A stretch of 38,796 bases of DNA. It comes from a virus. The translations under genes were made by a program, and so were the position numbers. The stretch covers positions 1 through 38,796 of IMG/VR virus record IMGVR_UViG_3300047558_000148; one strand, given 5' to 3'. Position 1 is the stretch's first letter; each line of letters opens with the position of its first letter. This document shows positions 1,711 through 36,414 of this stretch, in pieces. Under the pieces are notes generated by a model that worked only from the letters and a program-made list of their open reading frames with translations, was not told where the DNA came from and made no database searches.

Positions 1711-1738
1711 TTGACAAACTCAGTTTTTGTGCTATAAT
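1711..1738 (+). promoter_or_regulatory. Sigma70-type promoter before structured RNA and helicase block
   Basis: TTGACA at 1711-1716 and TATAAT at 1733-1738 are both exact consensus hexamers, 16 bases apart, starting 4 bases after the primase stop. This is the best host-type promoter on the + strand. Transcription would start near 1745 and read the structured RNA before reaching the gene at 1964. The -10 box overlaps an AATAAATA octamer (1736-1743), so a second factor could also use this site. Confidence 0.85.
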
Positions 1739-1743
1739 AAATA
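1736..1743 (+). promoter_or_regulatory. NATAAATA octamer (AATAAATA)
   Basis: This is an exact match to NATAAATA, the late-promoter consensus of T4-like cyanophages. It overlaps the -10 box of the sigma70 promoter. It may be chance overlap of two AT-rich motifs, but it is one of nine such octamers in intergenic DNA here. Confidence 0.35.
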
Positions 1744-1748
1744 CTAAT

Positions 1749-1937
1749 GATGAGCAAGTCATCGTGTGTCTCGTAGGCGCAAAAACTGATTTACAAGTCG
1801 GGTAAATCTGTAACTTCAAAACCGCACTCAAGCCCCTTCAATGGGGCTTTGAGCTGAAAAGGTATGATTTGAAGTCATATCTTATCCGTCCCGAAAAGGG
1901 AGCGCCTACGTAAATTGAAAGTGAGCAATAGTGCTCA
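1749..1937 (+). ncRNA. Structured RNA / leader, family not recognised
   Basis: About 190 nt between a consensus promoter and the gene at 1964 can fold into a closed multi-branched structure. Helices seen are 1749-1753/1759-1763 (5 bp), closing stem 1772-1780/1902-1910 (9 bp, perfect), 1788-1794/1802-1808 (7 bp), 1827-1836/1843-1853 (10 bp with one bulge), 1861-1869/1873-1881 (9 bp with two wobbles), 1889-1892/1898-1901 (4 bp, GAAAA loop) and 1922-1927/1932-1937 (6 bp). Bases 1813-1820 are also perfectly complementary to 1868-1875. That pairing would extend the 1827-1853 hairpin and destroy the 1861-1881 hairpin, so two exclusive folds exist. No T-run follows any hairpin. It could be a cis-acting leader or riboswitch, or a separate small RNA. 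I found no tRNA, tmRNA or hammerhead signature. Confidence 0.65.
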
Positions 1938-1963
1938 GGAGCAACTTAATTTAAGGACACATT

Positions 1964-2323
1964 ATGAGAAAAAATCACGGCAACGCCGCAACTAACATCA
2001 TCAACAATAACTATCGAACCGCAAGAAAAGGTGAAAAAGTTACAACACCACGCACATCTGGGTTTACATCTAGCTCTAGTAAAGATATCAAATCCTTTGA
2101 TACGATCAAAGCCTTTGATATTCTAATATCAGCACTCAGTAGTAACGATGAAAAAAATAAAGAACTCATTGAGAAATATCTTGCTATTCGTGGGTTACAT
2201 GGTGCTAATATAGCCGCTAATATGTTCCCACAGGCACATTACATCATTATCGAAGACCCTCTACTCAAACAAATCTGGGAAGATTTACTAATCACTATCG
2301 ATTCATTACAGGCGGCACGATAA
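1964..2323 (+). CDS. Unknown protein, 119 aa, co-transcribed with helicase
   Basis: The start has a good ribosome site (AAGGA at 1953-1957) and the stop directly abuts the helicase ATG at 2324, so the two are likely co-translated. The first 45 residues are polar, rich in N, T and S, and probably disordered. Residues 48-119 look folded, with hydrophobic helices in 'DTIKAFDILISAL' and 'YIIIEDPLLKQIWEDLLITI'. I recognise no family. Its position behind the structured RNA and in front of the helicase suggests a replication accessory factor such as a helicase loader or single-strand binding partner, but nothing in the sequence proves this. Confidence 0.7.
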   Translation: MRKNHGNAATNIINNNYRTARKGEKVTTPRTSGFTSSSSKDIKSFDTIKAFDILISALSSNDEKNKELIEKYLAIRGLHGANIAANMFPQAHYIIIEDPLLKQIWEDLLITIDSLQAAR

Positions 2324-4225
2324 ATGACCGACACCATTAAATTCCCAGAAATAACAACAAGTGCTGTTGTTCTTGAGCAGAAGAAACTCGCTAGTAAAAT
2401 TGAAAAGACTGGTGATGTTAATGTTGAACTATCAGAGGCTGAAAAGGCGGCGGCACTTGCTAAAGCAACTGCTGATGCTCTGGCAAAAGCAGTAAAAGAA
2501 GAAAACGCCGCTAAAAGAAAAGCCAAGAATCAGGCTAAAAAAGAAGAAGCCCAGATAGCCAAACAAGAAGAAACTGAAGAAGAAAAAATCATCAACGAGT
2601 GGAATGCTTTTGTCATTGCTAAGAACTTAGTTGAAACTACCGATATGAACTTTTTCAGAGATGGACAAGCAAAGTATTTCAACAAATTGATGACCACGAC
2701 AGTCAATCCAAAGTCTGGCGTTGTGGAGTATGAGACAGATATCAAATACTATCCACCACACTCTCTTAAAGACAACTGGTTAGAATTCAAGAATGAGAGA
2801 GTACTTATATGGTTTAGAAAGATTATTGATGGTGGTAAAATCACCGTCAAAAATCCAGAAACTGACGAGTTAATTACATTCGACTTTGAATCTAGACTGT
2901 ATGAGAAATTAACCAACACTGTTAGACAGGTTGATTCTAAAGTGTACAATCTGCTGGACTTGTCGGACAAACTTGTACCTAACTACAATAAAGATGAAAA
3001 ACAAGAATGTCCACCTATTCTAAAGGCACTACTCTATAGTTGTAGTGGTAATGAAATCACTTGGAATGAAGAAACTAATCAATGGGATTGTGATAAGCAA
3101 GAGAATCTTGATTGGTATGAAAAGTGGGTATACGGCACTGTTCATGCTGATATCGGCAACCCAATGGCTAGTATGCCAGTTACATTCGGTAGCGGTAAAG
3201 TAGGTCAGAACGCTCTGGCAGATATCGTGTTCCCGTCTATCATGGGAAGACAGACTTGTATGAGTACTATTTGGGATGTGATTCATGGCAACTTTGATGG
3301 TTTCAAACTTGGCAAAGTTTTTATCTTTATTGATGAAGTGCCAGAGCGAGATGATTGGAACCGTCTGAAGAATATGACTGGTAGTCCACAGGCATTCGTT
3401 CGTCAAAAGTACGGAGCTGAGTTTACTATCGATAACTGTATTCGTTATGCGTTAAGTAGCAATAGTGAGACATATCCCGGACCAGTAGAGAATGGTCGTC
3501 AGATGGAGCGTTATAGCCCTATCAAAAAGAACCCTAAGAGCACTTTCGCTGAAAATACAGTCAAAATTCTTGATAAGATTCATGGTGAAAATTATTGTAG
3601 AAACCTACTAAAAGAGTACAATGATTCATTAGATGTAGACACGATGAGCGATTTCGCAGTTGGCGACTCGTTACTACGTACAGCATTAGCAGATCAATGG
3701 CAATCCAGAGAGGCTGGGCAACAGTTGCTAAACTATCTAGATCAGACTTATGCTAGTTCTAAGGGTAGTTATAGTAACCCACCGTTGCGTGGTAGAGATT
3801 GGTCCGAAATCATTCAATCTAAGGGTAATATCAATGATAAGGTAACTCACTACTGTGTAGATCAAGATATCGATACTATTACAATTAATGAGCTATATGA
3901 GATTTACAAAGTGCTACAATCTGAGCGTAATGATAGTCCAAAGAAAATCAATGGTTTTGCGGCAACAATTAAACCATTGATGGAAGAAGTTGGGTATAAA
4001 GCGTTTGGACAGGCTTCAATCGCTGGCGGCACTAGAACTACAGTTTATAGTAAAACCAGCGATGATTTTGCTGAGTATCAGGAGAACGTTGATCGATTTA
4101 TCGTGACTGCCAATTTGAGCGATGACACATTCCATAAAGCTACTGTGCGAAGACTGCGATGGGAGAAAAAATCATCCATAAATGACGAGTTAAAGGCTAA
4201 ATTAGCTAAGTTTAAAGGGAAATAA
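2324..4225 (+). CDS. SF3-like replicative helicase (phage primase-helicase type)
   Basis: The 633-aa protein has the layout of superfamily 3 phage helicases that pair with AEP primases. Residues 30-90 form an A/K/E-rich, probably coiled-coil stretch. The middle region is unassigned. A P-loop-like segment F-G-S-G-K-V-G-Q-N-A-L lies at 288-298, Walker B V-F-I-F-I-D-E-V at 332-339, and a sensor-like Y-A-L-S-S-N at 375-380. About 180 residues of C-terminal domain follow. The family unwinds DNA at the fork as a ring, using ATP. The P-loop is odd: aligned on the usual G-x-G-K-N-x-L, glutamine sits where the catalytic lysine belongs, and a lysine lies three residues earlier. The sequence was read directly, so this is not a frame problem. 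A functional ATPase with a shifted lysine is plausible. Confidence 0.7.
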   Translation: MTDTIKFPEITTSAVVLEQKKLASKIEKTGDVNVELSEAEKAAALAKATADALAKAVKEENAAKRKAKNQAKKEEAQIAKQEETEEEKIINEWNAFVIAKNLVETTDMNFFRDGQAKYFNKLMTTTVNPKSGVVEYETDIKYYPPHSLKDNWLEFKNERVLIWFRKIIDGGKITVKNPETDELITFDFESRLYEKLTNTVRQVDSKVYNLLDLSDKLVPNYNKDEKQECPPILKALLYSCSGNEITWNEETNQWDCDKQENLDWYEKWVYGTVHADIGNPMASMPVTFGSGKVGQNALADIVFPSIMGRQTCMSTIWDVIHGNFDGFKLGKVFIFIDEVPERDDWNRLKNMTGSPQAFVRQKYGAEFTIDNCIRYALSSNSETYPGPVENGRQMERYSPIKKNPKSTFAENTVKILDKIHGENYCRNLLKEYNDSLDVDTMSDFAVGDSLLRTALADQWQSREAGQQLLNYLDQTYASSKGSYSNPPLRGRDWSEIIQSKGNINDKVTHYCVDQDIDTITINELYEIYKVLQSERNDSPKKINGFAATIKPLMEEVGYKAFGQASIAGGTRTTVYSKTSDDFAEYQENVDRFIVTANLSDDTFHKATVRRLRWEKKSSINDELKAKLAKFKGK

Positions 4226-4226
4226 T

Positions 4227-4517
4227 ATGAAAAATAACAATATGAAGAGTACACGTAATCAAGCTATATTAGATATGATAAGAGCTAGAAAAGATGGTGT
4301 AGGAGTACCAATGAAGCGCTCCAATGAGCAGACTTTCACCATTGAAAACTACGTTTATACTACTTTGGCTAGATTGACGATTGACGCTGTTAGACTTAAT
4401 AGCGAAATATCTGACATTTTTGACAAATATTCGGATGTAGATATAACGGAAGTTACCAGTAGCATCAATTCCGCTGGTATATGTGAGCGTGTTTATGTCC
4501 ACGTAGAGTATCAATAA
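4227..4517 (+). CDS. Unknown protein, 96 aa
   Basis: This short gene begins one base after the helicase stop, with a GGGA ribosome site at 4217-4220; an internal ATG at 4242 is an alternative start. The N-terminus is basic (residues 5-35), then helical, ending in a beta-like segment I-C-E-R-V-Y-V-H-V-E-Y. I do not recognise it. It is the last gene of the replication transcription unit and is followed within 4 bases by an intrinsic terminator. Its size and place fit a small replication or regulatory protein, possibly one acting at the iteron region that follows, but this is conjecture from position only. Confidence 0.65.
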   Translation: MKNNNMKSTRNQAILDMIRARKDGVGVPMKRSNEQTFTIENYVYTTLARLTIDAVRLNSEISDIFDKYSDVDITEVTSSINSAGICERVYVHVEYQ

Positions 4518-4518
4518 C

Positions 4519-4544
4519 AAAATGCCCCATAGTGGGGCATTTTT
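4519..4544 (+). terminator. Intrinsic terminator closing the replication block
   Basis: Stem AATGCCCC (4521-4528) pairs with GGGGCATT (4534-4541) around a 5-base loop and runs into a T-tract at 4540-4544. It sits directly after the stop at 4517. The upstream A-run could also give weak termination on the other strand. Confidence 0.9.
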
Positions 4545-4761
4545 ACTGAGAGACTGAGAGACTTTGAGACTTATTTTAAAAACTTATATAGAAAACAAAT
4601 TATTTTTTTTTATTTTTTTTTATTTTGAAGGTTGCCGAAAACTCAAACCCAAGTCTCTCAGTCTCTCAGTCTCTCAGTAACTCAAAAAAGTGCTCTGGAG
4701 CTATCAAAAACAGCGTTTTTTCTGAGATTTTACTGAGAGACTTTTGAGAGACTGAGAGACT
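4545..4761. other. Iteron clusters with AT tract: candidate replication origin
   Basis: The 8-mer GAGAGACT and its reverse complement AGTCTCTC occur in three clusters. In the forward direction it is at 4548-4555, with a close variant at 4556-4563 and a degenerate copy ending near 4571. In reverse it is at 4652-4659, 4660-4667 and 4668-4675, plus a degenerate unit at 4676-4683, with exact 8-base period. In the forward direction again it is at 4735-4742, 4746-4753 and 4754-4761. Between the first two clusters lies an A/T tract (4572-4627) with two runs of eight or more T. Iterons next to an easily melted AT tract, placed just after the primase and helicase genes, are the classical makeup of an origin. 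Clusters can also pair with each other as long hairpins, so a regulatory RNA is an alternative. Confidence 0.6.
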
Positions 4762-4799
4762 TTACACCTGAAAAACTTTCAGAATATTTCATCCATCGT

Positions 4800-5067
4800 T
4801 CGCCAATGATAAATACCTATGTAAAACGAAATTGCCATTTCGGTTTTATGTTTCTAAAAAATGGTCGTTGTCTGACATAAAAGTGACTTTACTTGAGGTT
4901 CTTACCTTTTAGTTTTGGTGAAACACTAAAATCACCCTGATGTTGAAAAGACGTTAGTTTCTGACATTATGTAACAATTTGTTGCGCATAGTAGATAGTC
5001 TCAAGTAATAGGTAGCTGATGTTCCTGTAGGTTGATTTTTAGTCTGCTACCATTTTCATAAGTTAGG
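4800..5067 (+). other. Non-coding, hairpin-rich stretch between origin-like region and terminator
   Basis: No credible gene is present. Self-complementary pairs seen are a near-perfect hairpin at about 4820-4851 with a TGCC loop, 4917-4921/4932-4936, long-range 4889-4897/5000-5008, and 5011-5016/5046-5051. A NATAAATA octamer lies at its left edge (4808-4815) and a strong terminator at its right edge (5068-5103). The region could be transcribed as a separate non-coding RNA of about 280 nt. No consensus sigma70 promoter was seen within it. Confidence 0.4.
4808..4815 (+). promoter_or_regulatory. NATAAATA octamer (GATAAATA)
   Basis: This octamer stands in front of the hairpin-rich non-coding stretch. 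No coding gene follows for 370 bases, so if it is active it would drive a non-coding transcript. Confidence 0.35.
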
Positions 5068-5103
5068 AAACCCTCTAGATTAAAGCCCTAGGGGGTTTTT
5101 TCT
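5068..5103 (+). terminator. Strong intrinsic terminator
   Basis: An 11-bp stem, 5068-5078 with 5088-5098, has one G-T wobble, a 9-base loop and a T-rich tail. It ends a transcript that does not belong to any coding gene, since the gene before it is already terminated at 4544. The tail GGGTTTTTTCTTT is repeated almost three times (5093-5132), probably by slippage duplication. Confidence 0.85.
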
Positions 5104-5132
5104 TTGGGTTTTTTCTTTGGGTTTTTCTTTTT
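5093..5132 (+). repeat. Three 13-nt direct repeats in the terminator tail
   Basis: GGGTTTTTTCTTT at 5093-5105 and 5106-5118 is identical. A third copy at 5119-5132 differs in T-run lengths. The strand is almost free of A and pyrimidine-rich, with a T-rich run leading into the promoter-like octamer at 5150. Confidence 0.8.
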
Positions 5133-12449: not shown

Positions 12450-12472
12450 AAAAGGAGCTTATTGCTCCTTTT
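12450..12472. terminator. Bidirectional terminator between convergent units
   Basis: A 9-bp stem (12450-12458 with 12464-12472) with loop TTATT separates the portal gene from the inverted cassette. T-rich sequence follows on the + strand and A-rich sequence precedes, so it can stop transcription from both sides. The stop codon of the minus-strand gene lies in its loop (12459-12461). Confidence 0.85.
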
Positions 12473-12686
12473 CTTCTTTTTGGTTGTCGTCTTTTGACTT
12501 TAGATAACCGTTAATCAGCCATAACACTGCCAACACCGCCAAGGCGGGTCCGATACCAGCACTGCCACCTGCGGGAGCCGGACTACATACAGTTGTGCCG
12601 TTTGACATCGGTCTACAGGCGAGCGATTGTGCGGTAGCGTTGGTGAGGGTGAACGCTAGGATTGTGGCTATGATTATGGATTTCAT
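12459..12686 (-). CDS. Small membrane or exported protein, 75 aa
   Basis: From ATG at 12686 the protein starts M-K-S-I-I-I-A-T-I-L-A-F-T-L-T-N-A-T-A-Q, a good signal peptide. Two cysteines follow (A-C-R-P-M and T-V-C-S-P), then one membrane helix (P-A-L-A-V-L-A-V-L-W-L-I-N-G-Y) and a charged tail. I chose this start because it overlaps the preceding stop as ATGA and begins at the signal peptide; a start at 12722 would add 12 unlikely residues. It is last in the inverted cassette. It may serve in lysis (holin- or spanin-like) or in changing the host envelope, for example against superinfection. The S-L-A-C site is only a poor lipobox. Confidence 0.6.
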   Translation of the reverse strand: MKSIIIATILAFTLTNATAQSLACRPMSNGTTVCSPAPAGGSAGIGPALAVLAVLWLINGYLKSKDDNQKEEKEQ

Positions 12687-12979
12687 TTTGAAAGATTCAA
12701 TAAGGTTTGATAATTGTCCCATGCTATTTGTAAGGACTCGTTTGATTCGCGGAGTTTCCTATCAGATTCGTATGCTCTTTTTTCTCGCATGAATTCTGCT
12801 AGTCTTACCTTTGGCATATTAAGCGTAGCAGTTTCTAGCTTGCCTTCATCATCAAGCAATTTCTTCATCTTAGGTCTGAATGAACCGTGCGGAACATCGT
12901 AGCTGAATGTGACATCGGCGCCATATTCCTTCTGAAAATCTGTTAGTTGCTCCTGGGTAATATCTAAGTTTTGTGTCAT
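12683..12979 (-). CDS. Unknown protein, 98 aa
   Basis: The start has a good ribosome site (AAAGGAAA) and lies two bases after the stop of the zinc-finger gene. The protein is charged and mostly helical. The first 30 residues contain E-Q-L-T-D-F-Q-K-E-Y-G-A-D-V-T-F-S-Y-D-V, and the last 45 a long helix (R-L-A-E-F-M-R-E-K-R-A-Y-E-S-D-R-K-L-R-E) that may form a coiled coil. I recognise no family. Its place between the DNA-binding protein and the membrane protein of the cassette is the only functional hint. Confidence 0.65.
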   Translation of the reverse strand: MTQNLDITQEQLTDFQKEYGADVTFSYDVPHGSFRPKMKKLLDDEGKLETATLNMPKVRLAEFMREKRAYESDRKLRESNESLQIAWDNYQTLLNLSK

Positions 12980-12981
12980 GA

Positions 12982-13773
12982 TTATTTTCCTTTCTTAATT
13001 AGTTTATAAACAACACCGTTAACTGATGCCTTTTTGCCAAGACAACAGAGTTTTACTTTATCAAACAAGATGCCATCATCTACAATGGACTGATATGTCT
13101 TGTACAGCTTATGTTTTTTACCGTCAATATAAGACTGAATGTGATAGCCATTCATAAAGCAGTTGTCGCCATGATAGCGAGTAAGCATAGCTTTACCTCC
13201 TTCGATATGACAGTGAGGACACTTGACTACTTCCTGTGGTCCGGGCTTAGCGCCACATTTACGCTTTACTCTTGTTGGATTCTGTTTACAGTATTTACCG
13301 TGATGTGTACCATAAGTTTGAGAATCTACGACTGCGCCGCAATGCTCACAGGTTTTATCCTTTACTCTGTTCTCTGCACACCAACGAAGCGTCTGTTTCG
13401 TCTCATCAGTATGACTTTTGTTATAGAATCCGTTGCGTTCGCCAGAAATCAAGTGACCATTACCATACATACCATTATCCTCACCGTATCTAGCAATTTT
13501 CTTGGCATGATTTTCTCGCTCTTTTTCTGACTTATTTTCCCAGGTTTTTCTTTTCTTATTGGCCACATTTTCTAGCTCATCTGCCGACATCTCGTTATAA
13601 GCGGATCGCCCATACATTGGATTCTTCTCGCCCTTGAATGCGCCTGATTCTGCTAATCTACGATTCTTTTCGCGGTTGGCAATTCTGGTATTGATTTTAC
13701 TATCAAAGATATCATCACTATCAAGATCACCGATGCCTAAATTGCCCCATTGTTGATTGTTTATATTAGTCAT
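12982..13773 (-). CDS. NUMOD3 / double zinc-finger DNA-binding protein lacking a nuclease domain
   Basis: The 263-aa protein is built only of DNA-binding modules known from homing endonucleases. NUMOD3-like turns occur three times: G-E-K-N-P-M-Y-G-R-S (48-57), G-E-D-N-G-M-Y-G-N (97-105) and G-E-R-N-G-F-Y-N-K-S (111-120). Two zinc fingers of Cys-Cys-His-Cys type follow, C142, C145, H157 or H158, C162 and then C185, C188, H201, C205. The end (S-I-V-D-D-G and C-C-L-G-K-K-A-S-V-N-G-V-V-Y-K-L) resembles the IENR1/NUMOD1 type. No GIY-YIG or HNH catalytic motif is visible. It lies three bases after the AAA+ gene with its own ribosome site (GGAAG). It may target the AAA+ protein to DNA, or be a homing enzyme that lost its nuclease. 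Confidence 0.65.
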   Translation of the reverse strand: MTNINNQQWGNLGIGDLDSDDIFDSKINTRIANREKNRRLAESGAFKGEKNPMYGRSAYNEMSADELENVANKKRKTWENKSEKERENHAKKIARYGEDNGMYGNGHLISGERNGFYNKSHTDETKQTLRWCAENRVKDKTCEHCGAVVDSQTYGTHHGKYCKQNPTRVKRKCGAKPGPQEVVKCPHCHIEGGKAMLTRYHGDNCFMNGYHIQSYIDGKKHKLYKTYQSIVDDGILFDKVKLCCLGKKASVNGVVYKLIKKGK

Positions 13774-13776
13774 GTT

Positions 13777-14619
13777 TTACTTCCAAAGTTGTTTTAACAT
13801 AGATTTGCGCAGATTCTCGTCGCCATTGTGCTGAAGAATATCAGCAATTTTAATTGCGATTCGCGGAGTAACTTCTACAAGATTGCGATAGTGTTCTGCC
13901 ATGTAATCATATGCCTGCTCGATGATATCACCATCGTAGCCGCCAGCAAACTCCTGACAATTTTTACCAAGCATAGCATAGTTTTCAACTAAGTGAGCAG
14001 TATACATAAACTTTTGCTCTTCTGTAAAGTCGCACTCGGCATAGTTGAAGCGACTGGCAATAGCGTGTTTCCACTGCTTCAATGCTCGATTCATGCCGTC
14101 TCGCTTGTCGTTTGTAATCCAAATGATAGAGGCATTGAACTCAAAAGAATGAGGGACGTTGAACTCTTCCATCAGCGCGTTTTTCTTAGCAGTTTCCCAT
14201 CCAATCTGTCGGTTCTGACCGAGTTCAACAGCCCCAAGCAACATTGGGATGATAAGATTACGCTCACTATTGTGAATCAGGTCGCAATCATCTAGTACGA
14301 TGATGCGATGCTTGTGTCGATTAAGATACAATTTAACATACAGACTTGCCGCAGTAACTTTTGAGCCCTTAATGTACTCAGTGTTAGTTTGATGTCCACT
14401 ATCAATCAGCGCTTTTTTGACTGTATAAGTCTTGCCTACGCCAGCGTCACCGGCAATGATTAACCCATTAATAGCACTATCTGGATTCTTAGCGAAGCTA
14501 GTAACTTGAGCATTAATGCCATCAAAGTGATCAATGATTTCTTTAGCTATCGGATTTACACGGAATTTTGCTTTTGGATATACGCCGAAAGCACCGGCGG
14601 TTGTGTCGATTAATGACAT
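13777..14619 (-). CDS. AAA+ ATPase
   Basis: The 280-aa protein has a full AAA+ set: Walker A G-D-A-G-V-G-K-T at 57-64, Walker B I-I-V-L-D-D-C-D at 106-113, sensor 1 I-I-W-I-T-N at 165-170, and A-S-R-F (188-191) as probable arginine finger. A helical C-terminal lid ends I-A-D-I-L-Q-H-N-G-D. The stretch K-G-S-K-V-T-A-A-S-L-Y-V-K-L-Y before Walker B resembles AAA+ proteins of unknown role that I recall from marine podo- and myophages. It is first in the inverted cassette, with a near-consensus sigma70 promoter and strong ribosome site (AAGGAG, minus strand, 14631-14626), so it is likely made early. Possible roles are helicase loading, DNA remodelling with the zinc-finger protein, or host takeover. 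Confidence 0.8.
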   Translation of the reverse strand: MSLIDTTAGAFGVYPKAKFRVNPIAKEIIDHFDGINAQVTSFAKNPDSAINGLIIAGDAGVGKTYTVKKALIDSGHQTNTEYIKGSKVTAASLYVKLYLNRHKHRIIVLDDCDLIHNSERNLIIPMLLGAVELGQNRQIGWETAKKNALMEEFNVPHSFEFNASIIWITNDKRDGMNRALKQWKHAIASRFNYAECDFTEEQKFMYTAHLVENYAMLGKNCQEFAGGYDGDIIEQAYDYMAEHYRNLVEVTPRIAIKIADILQHNGDENLRKSMLKQLWK

Positions 14620-27190: not shown

Positions 27191-29122
27191 ATGAGCACAG
27201 TAAGTTTAAATCTAATAAATGATAGCATCACAGCAAACTTCTATATTGAAGGAACAACTGCTGGACCAACAGTAGGTAATGTCGCACTATTGAACCTTGA
27301 CGGTAATATTTCAAATGTTCTACGAGGCGATGGTAGTTGGGGCGTAGGTGGCGGTGGCGGTGATGCTACTGTTGCTGGTGCGGATACCCAACTACAATAC
27401 AACAATGCGGGCGCACTTGGTGCTATTACAGGCGTGACAAGTAATGGTGTTGCGATTACCGCTGCTATTGCTAATATCAAAATTACCGGTGGTGCTAATA
27501 GTCAATTCATCTCTACTGATGGTTATGGTAATTTGGCATTCTCAACTATTCCCGGTTATGTTCAAACACCTCGTGTAGAGTTGATTGCTCCTGCGGTTTC
27601 GGCACAAAACTATACTTGGACACATCCTTCATTCGCTTATTACAATGATGATGCCACACTGATGAACATCTTTGCTATGGGTGTTCTAACAGACAAAAAT
27701 GAGTGGTCATTAAGTGGCACCACCCTAACTTACAATGCTTGGACTATTCCTAGTGCGCAGTATGATGTTCTGCCTGGTGTTGTTGCTACTGGCGCCGCTA
27801 GTGGTAGTATTGCTAGCGCGGATACTATCAACGCTAATATTATTACTGCTAATTCAGTAACTAGTGTGCGCTTAGCAGGTGAAGGTGGCAATATTAGTAA
27901 TATTCAAACACCGGTTATCTCAAATTCAACTACATACGCTCGCACTTATAGTGATGGTCACTTCCGTGTTGCTATCAACAACGGTTTGAAGATGATGATT
28001 GATAGTGATGGCGTAGAAATTACTGGTGCCTTAGTTCCAGCTGCCAACATCACTTATGATTTAGGCACTGCTACTCGTCGCTGGAAAGACCTATACCTAA
28101 GTAACAATACTATCTACTTGAACGATGTGTCGCTAAGTGCTGATGCTAATGGTCTGTCGGTTGCTGGTTCTACAATGGCTACTGAAGATTTTGTAGGCAA
28201 TTCAATCAACGCTCTAGGCAATATTCGCACAGTTAACTTAGACGGTAATGTTGCTAACGTGTTAAGTGGTAATGGCAGTTGGGTTCAAAACAAAACTGCG
28301 GGTGGCAACACTGGTGAGGTTCAGTTTAGTAACAGTGGCACACTTGATGGTAGTAGCCGTCTGAAATACGATGGCGTAACGCTAATCTCTAGTAGCGATA
28401 CCGTATCAGCAATTGGTGCTGTAAAATACAGTAACACAAGTAGTTCTACTCTTACCGTATATCGTGCCCGTGGCACTAAAGCAAGTCCTGCTACGGTTCA
28501 AGTAAATGACACATTAATTTTATCAGGTGGAACTTTTTATACTGGTAATGGTGCTGCTACAGTAGATGGCTTAGTAGGCTGGCCTAATACTCCTACTGCT
28601 ATTGTAGCAAAAGTATTAGCACTACCAAGCGCTAATGGATTCCCAGCATCAACTGAAATTGCGCTTAACGTAACTTCTAACGCATCAAACTCTTTAAGGA
28701 CAATGCTAAGTGTAGATTGGAGTAACGTGTCAATCGCCGGTGGTTCCGCTAATAGTAACGTCACAATCGCCGGTGGTTCCGCTAATAGTAACGTCTACAT
28801 CGCCGGTGGCTCCGCTAATAGTAACGTCTACATCGCCGGTGGCTCCGCTAATAGTAACGTCAGCATCGCCGGTGGCTCCGCTAATAGTAACGTCAGCATC
28901 GCCGGTGGCTCCGCTAATAGTAACGTCAGCATCGCGCCTGCAAGTGACGCTACTATTCGCATTGGTGGTGGTGCTAATACAAAAATTATTATGTATACAC
29001 AAAACGTGCCAGCCACTGCGACCTCAACAGGCACAGCCGGACAGGTAGCGTTTGACAGTAACTATATCTACTACTGTTGGGCAACAGACCAGTGGAAACG
29101 CTCACCACTATCAACATGGTAA
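27191..29122 (+). CDS. Tail fibre with 11-residue tandem repeat stalk
   Basis: The 643-aa fibre has 'N-V-L-R-G-D-G-S-W-G' and 'N-V-L-S-G-N-G-S-W' units. A block Y-D-L-G-T-A-T-R-R-W-K-D-L-Y-L-S-N (about 297-313) is shared with the fibre at 37044. Six perfect or near-perfect repeats S-N-V-x-I-A-G-G-S-A-N occupy residues about 511-577, plus a partial seventh; x is S, T, Y, Y, S, S. The end G-Q-V-A-F-D-S-N-Y-I-Y-Y-C-W-A, then W-K-R-S-P-L-S-T-W, matches C-termini known from marine phage fibres. The repeat is likely a thin beta-structured trimer stalk. The ribosome site is AAGG. Confidence 0.8.
   Translation: MSTVSLNLINDSITANFYIEGTTAGPTVGNVALLNLDGNISNVLRGDGSWGVGGGGGDATVAGADTQLQYNNAGALGAITGVTSNGVAITAAIANIKITGGANSQFISTDGYGNLAFSTIPGYVQTPRVELIAPAVSAQNYTWTHPSFAYYNDDATLMNIFAMGVLTDKNEWSLSGTTLTYNAWTIPSAQYDVLPGVVATGAASGSIASADTINANIITANSVTSVRLAGEGGNISNIQTPVISNSTTYARTYSDGHFRVAINNGLKMMIDSDGVEITGALVPAANITYDLGTATRRWKDLYLSNNTIYLNDVSLSADANGLSVAGSTMATEDFVGNSINALGNIRTVNLDGNVANVLSGNGSWVQNKTAGGNTGEVQFSNSGTLDGSSRLKYDGVTLISSSDTVSAIGAVKYSNTSSSTLTVYRARGTKASPATVQVNDTLILSGGTFYTGNGAATVDGLVGWPNTPTAIVAKVLALPSANGFPASTEIALNVTSNASNSLRTMLSVDWSNVSIAGGSANSNVTIAGGSANSNVYIAGGSANSNVYIAGGSANSNVSIAGGSANSNVSIAGGSANSNVSIAPASDATIRIGGGANTKIIMYTQNVPATATSTGTAGQVAFDSNYIYYCWATDQWKRSPLSTW
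28724..28935 (+). repeat. 33-bp in-frame tandem repeat, 6.4 copies
   Basis: Units start at 28724, 28757, 28790, 28823, 28856 and 28889, with a partial unit at 28922. The core GCCGGTGGCTCCGCTAATAG is identical in the last four units and differs by one base in the first two. Changes fall mainly at the codon for residue 4 (S, T, Y). Near identity at third positions shows recent duplication. Loss or gain of units keeps the frame. Confidence 0.95.
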
Positions 29123-30765: not shown

Positions 30766-33700
30766 ATGCCAATTTTAAACAGTATCGGTGCGCTTAGTAT
30801 TGAAGAGGGTGGTGATAACAATAGTGGTAATCTACCTGTTCAAAAATCATTTTTGAAGGTAGTACCTAGTCATACCGGCAATACTTTTATTATTAAACAG
30901 GTACGCAGTTTTGAGATTTACGAATACTCCACAGATAGTGGCAGTTACAGTTTGGCATATACTATTGATACTCCTACTGATTTTCCTACTCAAAGCGGTG
31001 TAGGTCAGAATATTCTGGCAGATGATTGCGATATTAGTTATGGTGGTGATAGAGTATTAGTTTCTTTTTACGACAGCAATCAATACAACAGTAAAGTGTA
31101 TGCTTACCAACTGGTAGGTGGTTTATGGACGCTAAAGAATAGTGTATTAAACACTGGTTCATCAAATGCTAATAATCGTTTTGGTTATTCTGTATCAATG
31201 AGTTGGGCAGATAACGGCTCAGTAGTTGCGCAATATCTAGAATCATACGGTAATGGGGCTGTTTATTATTACGGCGATATATGGAGTTCAACAAGTGGCA
31301 CAGTTCGCTCTGTCTTGCCGCGAGTTTCAATTAACCAGTCGAATGTTCAGGAATTCCCACGAAACGTTCAAATCACAAAAGATGGTAGTTACGCCCGTGC
31401 TGGTAGTTTAATAAGTGGTGTAATTAGCAACGCTGATATCTGGAGCATTACCACAAAATCTGGCGCTACCCTACCATTAAATGCTAAATGGCACGAGTTC
31501 AGTGATAAGTTGAACCTATTGAACCGTGAGTTCTCTGCTAAAGTATTGAGTGGCGATAAGAAGGTATCCTTTGAGATGGATGCTGCCATGACTTATATTA
31601 AAGTTACCCGCGATTTGGTAGTTGTTCCAGTGGTGCCGCCTACTATTAGCGTGCCAGTGAAGACATTTACTTTTACTACAAATACCGCAGTTAATCAAGT
31701 TGTTGCTACTTCTACTGGTACTGGCACACCAGTTTATAACATCAGTCCTGCCTTACCGCCCGGTCTAACTTTTAATACATCTACTGCTACTATTACTGGT
31801 ACACCTACATCGGTGACTGGTGTTACTCTGTATACTGTTACTGTTGGCTATAATGGCGATACTGCTAGTGATGGGTTTAGTTTGAAAACACTAATGCCTC
31901 GCACCGTTACTCTCAATGGCATTGGTGGGTTTTCATTTAATATTGGCAAATCTATCATGCCATTTAGTATTGCTACTATTAGTGGGTTCTCTCAGCCAGT
32001 TACCTATACAATAACTCCAGCATTGCCAAGTGGAGTTACTTTCAATACTTCAACTGGGGTTATGAGTGGCACACCTTCTGCTATTAAGGCAGTATCTACA
32101 TATCAACTAACCGTCAGTGATGCTGATAGTAGTCGTAGTATCAATTTTGATATTGAGGTTACTAGTGCTTTTACTGTTGCGACTACAACACCAACATTAA
32201 ATTTAATAGTAGGCAAAGCATTTACCAGTTCTGTTGTAACTACCACAAATAATTTCGGAGCCGTGACTTTCTCAATAAGTCCAGCGCTGCCTTCTGGTAT
32301 TAGTATGAGTACCACTACTGGTGTTATCAGTGGCACATTAACAAGTATATTGTCAGAAAGACAGTATACAATTACCGCCGCTGATAGCGTAACGTCTAGA
32401 ACTGCTGTCGTAAATATTTCTTGCGCTTCTGATACTACAATTACTACTACTACACAGACTTTTACTTTAGGTGTAGCAGTAAATTATACTCCAGTTACTA
32501 CAAGTTCTGCTGGTGCTCCGTATGTTTATTCTACATTAGCCGCATTGCCAAATGGGCTATCTTTGAATACTTCGACAGGCGCTATTAGTGGAACTCCTTC
32601 TAATTGTGAAGGTGGTTATACTGTAACTATAACCGTAACGGACAAATATGGTTACTCTTCTACTAGTAACATGATAATGTATATCGTACATACTAGCATT
32701 TCTATTACTTCTGTTTATGGTACCAATTATAATCTTGGTCAAACTTATACCGGTACAAGTTACATCACTGGTCAGGGTATTGGAACATTTACAACAACTG
32801 TAACGCCAGCATTACCAAGCGGGTTGTCTATCGGAACTGGCGGTAAAATAATTGGAACACCTAATCTAGCTAGTACTATTGGCAGTAACTCTTATACATT
32901 TAGAGTAACGAATGCTTTCGGCAACTATACGGAGGTAACTAAAACTCTATCTATTAGCAGTGATTTTACTGCTACTCTATCTACGACTATTTTCACTGCT
33001 ACTCTAGGAAAACCAACAATACTGAATATTATGACGTTGAGCGGAGTCGGTACCCCTTATTCGGTATCTATATCGCCAGCGTTGCCGTCCGGGTTAAGTT
33101 TAAATTCTACTAATGGTCAGATTACTGGCACTCCGGTAGTAGGACTATCTCCAGCTAAGATTTATACTCTTACAGCAGCAGATAAATTTGGAATAACAAA
33201 AACACTAAAAATTAATTTAAGTGTAATAAGTGATTTGACTGTCACTGGAACAAACTTGTCATTTACTATCGGCGCAACTGGCGCTTTCTCACCAGTTACA
33301 GTAACTGGTAGTAGTGGTCCTTATGTATATGCGTTTACTCCATCAACTCCGCTACCTAGTGGACTAACGATTAATTCTTCAACCGGGGTTATTAGTGGAA
33401 CTATTACTCAACTTATCAGTAAGACATGTAATATTTTAGTAATTGATTCATTTGGGATTACTATTAGCACACCAATTACTATTTCTTCAGTAAATGATAC
33501 TGTATTATCAACGCCTACAGATGCTCCAATATATGGACAGACACTATTAGAAGCTGAGAAGAATAATTCTATTACTCCAGTAACAGTGACTGGTAACAGT
33601 GGTCCTTATACATTTTCTATTTCGCCAGCTCTGCCGAGTGGATTATCATTTAATACTGCCACAGGCGAGATAACAGGCACTCCTACTACTGGTTTTGGTA

Positions 33701-36414
33701 CTAACTCATATACTATTACTGCTACTGGTTCTGCCTTGTATGGTAGTTTACAAACATCTAAGACATTCAATCTGTTTATTGGATATTTCTTAAAGTTCAC
33801 ACAGGGTTTACAATTAACTAATACCCTATCATTTGGCGGAATTGCTAATACAGCGGGATTTAAATGGTACGAGCTTAAGGGTTTCTTTACTACGGCTAAA
33901 GTTACGGATATGAGTAATTTATTTGCTTATAAGTATCCATTGAGTCAAAACTGGGATGATATTATCTCGTGGGATGTTAGTGCGGTTACTAATATGTCTG
34001 GGATGTTCTATCCTTCGAAATACTTTAATGCCGATATTAGTGGATGGAATACCAGTAATGTTACTAACATGAGTAATATGTTTAGAGGCGCTAGCTCTTT
34101 CAATCAGGATATTAGTGGATGGAATACCAGTAATGTTACTAATATGAGTAATATGTTTTATCAGGCGACTGCGTTCAACCAAGATATTAGTGGATGGACA
34201 GTTGACTCCGTTACCGATATGTCTGGTATGCTTGCAGGTTGTAGTTCTTTCAACCAAGATATTAGTAGTTGGAATACCGGTAACGTTACTAATATGAGTG
34301 GAATGTTTGGTAGCTGTAGTTCTTTCAACCAAGATATTAGTAGTTGGAATACCGGTAACGTTACTAATATGAGTGGAATGTTCAGCGGATGTAGTTCTTT
34401 CAATCAAGATATTAGTAATTGGGATGTTAGTAAGGTTACTAATATGAGCGGCATGTTTAACACTGCCACAAACTTTAATCAAGATATAGCTGGATGGAAT
34501 GTTGCCGCCGTTACTAATATGAGTAAGATGTTCTACAGTTCTAATTTCTCCAATGATTTAATATACTGGTGTGTTACTCGTATTCCTACTTTGCCTGATC
34601 AATTTGGCACTGTTCTAACTGCCGATAAATTACCTCGTTGGGGCACATGTCCATCTGGCGTAATAACTTATCAGCCATCACTGACACTAGCTATTGGTTC
34701 AACCGTAAGTAAAAAATTAGCAACTGTGTATAAGCCTACTGCTGCTTACTCAATAAGTCCAGCATTGCCGAGTGGATTATCATTTAATACTGCTACTACT
34801 GAAATAACAGGTGTGCCTGATAGAATATCTGCGGTTACCGCATATACTATTTCTACGGTAGATAGAAACGGTGTTGCTGTTAGTGGGGTGGTTAATATTG
34901 GCGTAGTATCTGAATTATCTGTAACTGCGCCATCTCGAATCGTTTTCACGACGAATGTTTATGGACAAACTACTATTCCTGTATTAAAATCATTCGGCAC
35001 AATCACTTACTCGTTTTCGCCTGCGTTGCCGAGTGATATGATATCCTCAGTTACAAACAATAATATTATTGTATATTCAACAACAAGACAAAAATCATAT
35101 AGCGTTACTCATACATTGACAGTGGCAGATGAATCTGGAAACTCTATTAGCAAATCTATATTATTCTTAATAGATTATCCTCTTTTAGTTGCCAAATTAT
35201 TAACCGCTAAAACTTTAACTGTTGTTGCGTCTGAAAATCTTAGAGCAACAGGGTTGGTTATTGGCTCCGGAGGGGCAGGTACAGTTACCGGTACTTATAC
35301 ATACTCGGCAAGTCCTTCTTTACCATCTGGTTTATACTTTAGTCCTACTACAGGCGAAATTTCTGGCGCACCTGATAGAGCAACTCCTACATTGACGACT
35401 TCAACTCATACTCTAACTGTAACAGATGAGGTAGGTTCTACTGCCACAACTACTGTTACAATCGGTATAATTACAAAATATTTTTATCCGCTAAACGCAA
35501 CAACTGACCCTACATATGCTCTGTGTGCCGCAAGAACCACACCAGGATATTCTTTTGTTAGCGGAGTTGGAATTTATACCAGCAACAAAATAACTGATAT
35601 GAGTTACATGTTTTTGAATAATACAACATTTAATAATAGTGATATTACTAAATGGGATACTTCAAGCGTCACTTCTATGGCGCACATGTTCTCTGGCGCA
35701 ACCTCGTTTAATCAGCCAATTGGTAGTTGGAATACTTCAGAAGTTTTAAACATGGATTATATGTTCTCTGGAGCTAGTTCGTTCAATCAAGATATAAGTG
35801 CTTGGGATTGTAGAAACGTCAATACAAGAAGATATCAATTTAAAAATGCCGCCGCTTTCAATAAACCTGTCGGAATTGTAGGTGGTGGCTATTTAACTGG
35901 TATGTTTTATGGTGCTAGTTCTTTTAATCAACCTATTGTTGGCGTGCCATCTATAACCAAGCCCTCGTTATTCCCATATGACCTCAGTTATATGTTCTAT
36001 GGGGCAAGTTCTTTCAATCAATCATTGGCTGAAATAGGAACGGATAACTGTACCGATTTGAGTTATATGTTCGCTGGCGCCAGTTCTTTTAACCAGTCCA
36101 TTAGTCACTTTAACTTATCAAAAGTGACTAATGTTAGCTATATGTTCTCTGGCGCAAGCGCATTTAATCAACCAATTATGGAAGCATTTGGCATTGGTAC
36201 ACCTCCTATCACAAAAGCAGACGGGATGTTTAAAAATGCGACTTCATTTAATCGGCAGTCAAACTTTCATTTTCAGTATATTACTACGCAGCCATTGGAG
36301 TTTACTGCTGGAGCAAATACATCGTGGTTATCGAATAGGAGTGATAATGTTCCTAAAATTTATGGTGGAATAGGTCCAAATGGCTTACCTCTATATCTGA
36401 ACATAACAACCTAA
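30766..36414 (+). CDS. Giant adhesin: He_PIG Ig-like repeats and DUF285/BspA-like repeats
   Basis: The 1882-aa protein is the largest in the window. Residues 1-290 look like a beta-propeller (F-E-I-Y-E-Y-S-T-D-S-G-S-Y, V-Y-A-Y-Q-L-V-G-G-L-W). Eight He_PIG-type Ig-like units follow, each with P-A-L-P-S-G-L, then N-x-x-T-G-x-I-x-G-T-P. A first DUF285 block of 25-residue repeats (S-F-N-Q-D-I-S-G-W-N-T-S-N-V-T-N-M-S) spans about 1045-1258. Three more PIG units, one decayed, follow, then a second, more diverged DUF285 block at about 1598-1838. DUF285 repeats are known from surface lipoproteins of mycoplasmas and other bacteria. It is probably a side fibre or head decoration that binds a surface. 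The ribosome site is weak (GAAAG). Confidence 0.85.
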   Translation: MPILNSIGALSIEEGGDNNSGNLPVQKSFLKVVPSHTGNTFIIKQVRSFEIYEYSTDSGSYSLAYTIDTPTDFPTQSGVGQNILADDCDISYGGDRVLVSFYDSNQYNSKVYAYQLVGGLWTLKNSVLNTGSSNANNRFGYSVSMSWADNGSVVAQYLESYGNGAVYYYGDIWSSTSGTVRSVLPRVSINQSNVQEFPRNVQITKDGSYARAGSLISGVISNADIWSITTKSGATLPLNAKWHEFSDKLNLLNREFSAKVLSGDKKVSFEMDAAMTYIKVTRDLVVVPVVPPTISVPVKTFTFTTNTAVNQVVATSTGTGTPVYNISPALPPGLTFNTSTATITGTPTSVTGVTLYTVTVGYNGDTASDGFSLKTLMPRTVTLNGIGGFSFNIGKSIMPFSIATISGFSQPVTYTITPALPSGVTFNTSTGVMSGTPSAIKAVSTYQLTVSDADSSRSINFDIEVTSAFTVATTTPTLNLIVGKAFTSSVVTTTNNFGAVTFSISPALPSGISMSTTTGVISGTLTSILSERQYTITAADSVTSRTAVVNISCASDTTITTTTQTFTLGVAVNYTPVTTSSAGAPYVYSTLAALPNGLSLNTSTGAISGTPSNCEGGYTVTITVTDKYGYSSTSNMIMYIVHTSISITSVYGTNYNLGQTYTGTSYITGQGIGTFTTTVTPALPSGLSIGTGGKIIGTPNLASTIGSNSYTFRVTNAFGNYTEVTKTLSISSDFTATLSTTIFTATLGKPTILNIMTLSGVGTPYSVSISPALPSGLSLNSTNGQITGTPVVGLSPAKIYTLTAADKFGITKTLKINLSVISDLTVTGTNLSFTIGATGAFSPVTVTGSSGPYVYAFTPSTPLPSGLTINSSTGVISGTITQLISKTCNILVIDSFGITISTPITISSVNDTVLSTPTDAPIYGQTLLEAEKNNSITPVTVTGNSGPYTFSISPALPSGLSFNTATGEITGTPTTGFGTNSYTITATGSALYGSLQTSKTFNLFIGYFLKFTQGLQLTNTLSFGGIANTAGFKWYELKGFFTTAKVTDMSNLFAYKYPLSQNWDDIISWDVSAVTNMSGMFYPSKYFNADISGWNTSNVTNMSNMFRGASSFNQDISGWNTSNVTNMSNMFYQATAFNQDISGWTVDSVTDMSGMLAGCSSFNQDISSWNTGNVTNMSGMFGSCSSFNQDISSWNTGNVTNMSGMFSGCSSFNQDISNWDVSKVTNMSGMFNTATNFNQDIAGWNVAAVTNMSKMFYSSNFSNDLIYWCVTRIPTLPDQFGTVLTADKLPRWGTCPSGVITYQPSLTLAIGSTVSKKLATVYKPTAAYSISPALPSGLSFNTATTEITGVPDRISAVTAYTISTVDRNGVAVSGVVNIGVVSELSVTAPSRIVFTTNVYGQTTIPVLKSFGTITYSFSPALPSDMISSVTNNNIIVYSTTRQKSYSVTHTLTVADESGNSISKSILFLIDYPLLVAKLLTAKTLTVVASENLRATGLVIGSGGAGTVTGTYTYSASPSLPSGLYFSPTTGEISGAPDRATPTLTTSTHTLTVTDEVGSTATTTVTIGIITKYFYPLNATTDPTYALCAARTTPGYSFVSGVGIYTSNKITDMSYMFLNNTTFNNSDITKWDTSSVTSMAHMFSGATSFNQPIGSWNTSEVLNMDYMFSGASSFNQDISAWDCRNVNTRRYQFKNAAAFNKPVGIVGGGYLTGMFYGASSFNQPIVGVPSITKPSLFPYDLSYMFYGASSFNQSLAEIGTDNCTDLSYMFAGASSFNQSISHFNLSKVTNVSYMFSGASAFNQPIMEAFGIGTPPITKADGMFKNATSFNRQSNFHFQYITTQPLEFTAGANTSWLSNRSDNVPKIYGGIGPNGLPLYLNITT
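33958..34557 (+). repeat. 75-bp tandem repeats (8 units) in the adhesin gene
   Basis: The word GATATTA (GATATAG in the last unit) recurs at 33958, 34033, 34108, 34183, 34258, 34333, 34408 and 34483, exactly 75 bases apart. Units 34033 and 34108, and 34258 and 34333, are nearly identical in DNA. These are recent duplications within an older DUF285 array. Confidence 0.92.

Follow-up and report, generated by a model that had tools for sequence, protein, structure and literature searches.

The operon leaders of related uncultured phages carry a previously uncatalogued two-state RNA switch, absent from Rfam, whose base pairs are kept although its letters are not. The window analysed here, an IMG/VR virus record of 38,796 bases, holds in front of its replication genes an RNA that is a probable divergent relative of this element rather than a proven member. 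Judging from predicted folds and from the relatives, we favour, with some reserve, the reading that region 1749-1937 forms the 5' leader of the mRNA for the replication operon, where it would act in cis as a translational switch.

The predicted fold of the window's leader

The leader and its surroundings comprise the following features.

715-1707 (upstream of the leader): primase-like gene
1711-1738, plus strand: sigma70-type promoter, TTGACA-16-TATAAT with TG before the -10 (extended -10), matching 12/12 consensus positions
1738-1743, plus strand: TAAATA box overlapping the -10 and start region; it precedes every complete element of the relatives and many other genes of this phage
1749-1763, plus strand: 5' hairpin at the presumed transcript start, predicted by folding and found at the corresponding place in relatives
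1764-1771, plus strand: anti-Shine-Dalgarno (anti-SD) strand GUGUGUCU, assigned from pair probabilities, with its partner at 1955-1962; not significant when taken alone
1772-1780 and 1902-1910, plus strand: arms of the closing stem P1, 9 bp, pair probability 0.99
1785-1811, plus strand: extra hairpin Pa, predicted by folding and absent from relatives
1813-1820, plus strand: linker ACUUCAAA, complementary to the Pc loop and a rival of the loop-loop pairing
1827-1853, plus strand: hairpin Pb (P2-like), predicted by folding, with loop UUCAAU at 1837-1842
1856-1886, plus strand: hairpin Pc (P3-like), with loop UUUGAAG at 1868-1874, six Watson-Crick pairs being possible with 1836-1841
1889-1901, plus strand: extra hairpin Pd, predicted by folding and absent from relatives
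1922-1937, plus strand: 3' hairpin between P1 and the Shine-Dalgarno (SD) sequence, predicted by folding
1953-1962, plus strand: SD sequence AAGGA (1953-1957) together with the strand 1955-1962 that pairs with 1764-1771
1964-2323, plus strand: first gene of the operon, an orphan open reading frame of 119 aa with no relative found
2324-4225, plus strand: DUF5906/primase-helicase-like ATPase of 633 aa (PF19263, 4.5e-10; phrog_1156, 1e-8)
4519-4543, strand not assigned: GC-rich terminator hairpin 3' of the operon

Folding of the leader (1749-1937) gave a minimum free energy of -69 kcal/mol, compared with a dinucleotide-shuffle mean of -42.7 (sd 3.8; z -6.97), and 0 of 200 shuffles were as stable. 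When fold strength relative to GC was scanned across the whole window, the leader ranked second on the plus strand, behind the repeat-rich region 4500-4840. The initial annotation had described a perfect closing stem around four hairpins, a further hairpin on either side and a consensus sigma70 promoter directly upstream; all of these were recovered, the stem and every hairpin being part of the predicted fold. It had also proposed a switch between two folds, in which ACTTCAAA (1813-1820) pairs with TTTGAAGT (1868-1875) in competition with a local hairpin. This complementarity is present in the sequence, but it forms a minor state only, with a mean probability of 0.07 (~7% of the ensemble), a weight derived from the ensemble alone. 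The relatives point to a better-supported switch, one anti-SD strand with two mutually exclusive partners.

Two features had been overlooked. One is a helix between 1764-1771 (GUGUGUCU) and 1955-1962 (GGACACAU), which covers the SD sequence AAGGA with a mean probability of 0.86 in the predicted ensemble. By itself this pairing is unremarkable (185 of 2000 shuffles, p ~0.09), and the two pairings of the 5' strand, with the SD sequence and in P1, were together matched in strength by 54 of 2000 shuffles. The SD helix and P1 abut end to end in the window and do not overlap. Given this predicted pairing of 1764-1771 with the SD region, translation control is the likely role of the leader. No terminator-like site was found on the plus strand at 1749-1964; a transcription attenuator was rejected on this ground, and the earlier preference for control of translation of the 1964 gene over termination found support.

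The second overlooked feature is the complementarity between the loops of Pb and Pc, the second and third of the enclosed hairpins. CUUCAA (1836-1841) and UUGAAG (1869-1874) can form six pairs, or five if the closing pair stays shut, and complementarity of at least 5 bp between neighbouring loops arose in 14 of 600 shuffles (about 2% by chance). The Pc loop of the window has two competing partners, the Pb loop and the linker at 1813-1820.

A leader element conserved in shape among related uncultured phages

A direct nucleotide search with the leader in phage records returned promoter-sized chance matches only. Searches with the window RNA and the helicase found nothing close in phage records or IMG/VR, and queries with the helicase, the first gene and the endonuclease gave few relatives or none. 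A terminase scan of cultured-genome contigs produced no match and thus pointed to no prophage or host. Relatives, all of them uncultured phages, were reached via their terminase and primase genes.

The corresponding leaders of L006, L010 and L012 share a common order: a promoter with a TAAATA box, a hairpin at the transcript start, a long hairpin P2 and, directly after it, a short hairpin P3, the loops of P2 and P3 being complementary. We scanned 836 kb for this architecture, requiring a P2 of 8 pairs or more, a P3 of 4 or more, 6 or more Watson-Crick pairs shared between the loops, and a distance of up to 8 nt; this gave 14 matches on the plus strand and 3 on the minus strand. The plus-strand matches lay mostly in such leaders, with two inside genes; matches inside genes (L048 17112, L053 4484, L010 4261) were set aside as chance. 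The set was then extended by looser scanning, by following primase relatives and by a covariance model. In all, 31 contigs have the element in an operon leader, and their loop pairs comprise 19 different sequences. Its parts follow one another as TAAATA box, 5' hairpin, anti-SD strand, P2, P3 and two alternative anti-SD partners, one of which holds the SD sequence; the P3 loop is complementary to the P2 loop over 6-9 bp. The far ends of ten records, used as a negative control, contained no strong copy, and some relatives (L004) are without the element. The first gene behind the switch varies (L024, L040, L049, L052, L095, L101, L157 and others) and encodes Prim-Pol, primase, polymerase-like proteins of 440-570 aa or members of unknown families. 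Considering these differing first genes, the leader behaves as a module swapped between operons.

Covariation was assessed in an alignment of 18 cores. Across P2, P3 and the loop-loop pairs, 97.0% of cells were standard-paired, compensating changes occurred in 14 of 15 pairs, and 74 cells had changes on both sides. The covariation score was 0.793 versus 0.238 for shuffled alignments, and no higher than 0.21 when the partner was slid by one to three columns, which lowered the paired fraction to below 50%; the loop-loop helix alone scored 0.653 versus 0.242. Only 1 of 50 columns is invariant in the 18 relatives, and the loop letters are not conserved. At least 6 Watson-Crick pairs were possible in all 17 distinct loop pairs, a result reached by 0 of 100,000 permutations in a test that is inflated, as members were partly selected for loop complementarity. 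The fairest test is provided by three later finds (L016, L127, L072) from a covariance model without loop-loop pairs: both new loop pairs among them (L016, L072) are fully complementary. The stems contain six G.T and no A.C pairs, which points to an RNA of this strand. All 23 folded leaders were more stable than their shuffles (mean z -4.3). A conserved short reading frame or peptide across the element was rejected, as stops and indels break the frames between relatives while the pairing holds.

In the relatives, a pyrimidine-rich strand, for example ACUCCUAA, lies just 5' of P2 and has two downstream partners, one immediately after P3 and one containing the SD sequence. The clearest case is L019, where UUUCUCAAUC has two alternative partners, GAUUGAGAA immediately downstream of P3 and GAUUGAGAAA at the ribosome site; the same plan is found in L016, L157, L101, L076, L080, L049 and L010. 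In L080, CUCCAA replaces CUCCUA in the anti-SD strand, and the proximal copy follows suit, with UUGGAG in place of UAGGAG. The two duplexes are similar in energy (about -7 to -15 kcal/mol), and in most members the same bases are contested. In all 23 leaders tested, dual pairing exceeded that of at least 95% of shuffles; three of these leaders came from a covariance model that ignores dual pairing; in short leaders (e.g., L006, L048) the proximal and distal windows overlap and the numbers are less clean. Predicted ensembles split between the two states, and the favoured state differs among members.

Consistent with the initial annotation, which had recognised no known RNA class, the window gave 0 matches at the gathering threshold of Rfam release 15, a permissive search of 1690-1990 gave chance-level matches only, and ten relative loci had no Rfam match either. 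The window shares the position of the element, namely promoter and TAAATA box, 5' hairpin and operon leader. Covariance model R1, built from 18 members, did not find it (0.6 bits, E 3.1); R1 also misses L006, L012 and L040, in which the element was recognised by hand, so the model is narrow. Compared with the relatives, the window's RNA has two extra hairpins, a weaker loop match, helices that abut instead of overlapping, which is largely the case in L002 as well, and an additional competitor for the Pc loop, the linker. Covariation, which had been named as the check on the proposed RNA, is strong in the corresponding leaders of relatives; IMG/VR yielded no close homologue of the window's expanded version or of its operon. 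Weighing the common place and plan against the miss by a narrow model, the structural differences and the lack of a closer homologue, we class the window's RNA as a probable divergent relative.

Alternatively, the window's leader might be merely a very stable 5' UTR, a message stabiliser or generic brake unrelated to the relatives' switch. The covariance-model miss, the extra hairpins and an SD pairing that alone reaches p about 0.09 are in line with this reading, which we nevertheless consider doubtful: the leader lies at the same position behind a promoter of the same kind and has a 5' hairpin and a closing stem, along with a 5' strand that faces the SD sequence and, less clearly like the relatives, two adjacent hairpins whose loops are complementary.

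Proposed mechanism and competing explanations

Under the cis-acting translational switch, transcription would start just after 1738. In the ON state the 5' strand would be paired within the leader only (P1 plus the P2/P3 hairpins), leaving the SD sequence free, and the complementarity of the P2 and P3 loops would steady this fold. In the OFF state the 5' strand would pair with the SD sequence and initiation would be blocked. For the relatives, we infer that pairing of the proximal copy corresponds to ON and pairing of the distal copy to OFF; the expanded version in the window may work alike. Since transcription reaches the proximal copy before the distal one, a nascent RNA would begin in the ON state and close later, thereby timing expression of the operon. 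If a protein favoured one of the states, the switch could instead come under autogenous control. In the absence of conserved loop or junction letters, a co-transcriptional timer or a change driven by a phage protein fits better than a metabolite.

One form of protein control, which we entertain only tentatively, is a translational operator whose hairpins are bound by a phage replication protein that locks the SD sequence closed. In its favour, the window's leader stands before replication genes (primase, DUF5906 ATPase) and that of L010 before a Prim-Pol gene, and fast letter change within a fixed shape suits a co-evolving RNA-protein pair. However, the first gene varies widely, no single protein accompanies the element in all relatives, and a protein-binding sequence is not conserved.

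The geometry of the two hairpins bears on how the translational switch would be built. P2 spans about one helical turn and P3 has 3-5 pairs. With no more than 2 nt separating the hairpins, and loops complementary over nearly their whole length, coaxial kissing of the classical kind seems difficult within a single molecule. Either P3 would open into an ordinary pseudoknot, or the loops would pair between two molecules. That they pair mainly between two mRNAs, making the leader a self-dimerising, concentration-sensing translational switch, seems improbable to us; if it were true, each phage type would have a private loop code, and operon expression would shift once transcripts accumulate.

Sensing of a metabolite had been one suggestion of the initial annotation. 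The element does resemble the purine riboswitch in its P1 closing stem, its two hairpins joined at a junction by a loop-loop contact and its SD expression platform. However, known aptamers conserve their binding core, and the junction and loop letters conserved in the purine riboswitch are absent here: the loops and junction of the relatives show no sequence conservation, one column only is invariant in the 18 cores, there is no Rfam match, and the contact consists of 6-9 Watson-Crick pairs of changing sequence. A metabolite riboswitch is therefore very unlikely. We give slightly less credence still to a put-like antitermination RNA acting by modification of RNA polymerase, as might be suggested by adjacent hairpins at the very 5' end of an operon. 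Put sites are conserved in sequence, unlike the letters of the element, and in each of the relatives' leaders tested its 5' strand matches the SD sequence, a match for which antitermination would have no use. Least credible is a DNA element (an origin, cruciform or single-strand initiation site), to which the inverted repeats and nearby replication genes might point, given G.T but no A.C in the stems, an orientation fixed relative to the start codon, the SD pairing and a better origin candidate at 4545-4765.

Known systems and further observations in the window

No description of the element was found in titles and abstracts of the open-licence literature on loop-paired leaders, phage riboswitches, structured-RNA surveys and alternative phage mRNA folds. 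The lambda cIII mRNA leader is bistable: of its two mutually exclusive folds, one exposes the ribosome site and the other conceals it. It resembles the element in being a phage mRNA with two such folds and no terminator; unlike the element, cIII has neither paired P2/P3 loops nor a duplicated SD-strand decoy, and its structure includes coding sequence. In the rep leaders of IncI/IncB plasmids (repZ), a loop pseudoknot forms, and regulation needs an antisense RNA and translation of a leader peptide. Long-range loop pairing and an SD-blocking stem before a replication gene are common to both systems, whereas no conserved reading frame crosses the leader element. The phi29 pRNA likewise has a three-way junction and two hairpins with complementary loops, keeping its shape with little sequence conservation, but it is a trans-acting packaging RNA, whereas the element lies in an mRNA and pairs with the SD sequence. 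Type I toxin mRNAs (H. pylori aapA1, PMC6733600; hok) form metastable anti-SD structures, and their SD sequence pairs successively with anti-SD strands during transcription. In contrast to the leader element, for which no antisense RNA partner was seen, toxin mRNAs have one, and the folds differ. The element matches none of these systems, purine riboswitches included, well enough to count as a member.

Switchable leaders that hide the SD sequence are already known singly in phages; the element described here is a recurring, uncatalogued device shared by many phage contigs. As nearly every letter has changed, sequence searches miss it. The element is placed where a phage would time operon expression, with no obvious metabolite needed. 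Its pairing rules are simple, which makes them testable and reusable, and the strong two-sided covariation makes the mechanism of one strand with two partners directly testable.

Several further features of the window were noted. On its plus strand, 12 of 19 TAAATA boxes are intergenic (1738, 4810, 5152, 7412, 10821, 14743, 15640, 18427, 26671, 26691, 30730 and 36446), intergenic DNA making up 5.5% (binomial p 3e-11); on the minus strand, 0 of 3 copies are. The box seems to be a general signature of promoters or start sites, similar to the T4 late box.

Region 4545-4765, a noncoding gap directly after the replication genes, contains direct and inverted repeats of GAGAGACTGAGAGAC round an A/T-rich core and is a candidate replication origin, better than the leader region. 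Rfam plant microRNA matches in this gap were below gathering scores and were rejected as artefacts that the inverted repeats produce.

A second candidate noncoding RNA of ~290 nt lies at 4816-5108 on the plus strand (z -3.1), without an open reading frame of 60 aa; it is delimited by the TAAATA promoter at 4810 and by an intrinsic terminator at 5082-5108. L012 5363-5635 matches it at 61% over 316 nt, and a gene resembling it occurs at the corresponding place in L006 and L010, with the recurring hairpin motif CUGUAGGUUGAU.

Amid the plus-strand morphogenesis genes, a minus-strand cluster at 12459-14619 encodes a phrog_1250 ATPase and a NUMOD3-type homing endonuclease and is likely a mobile insertion. 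Regions 27191-29122 and 30766-36414 encode repeat-rich tail or structural proteins, with tandem SNVTIAGGSAN repeats and a 1882-aa protein with many repeated domains.
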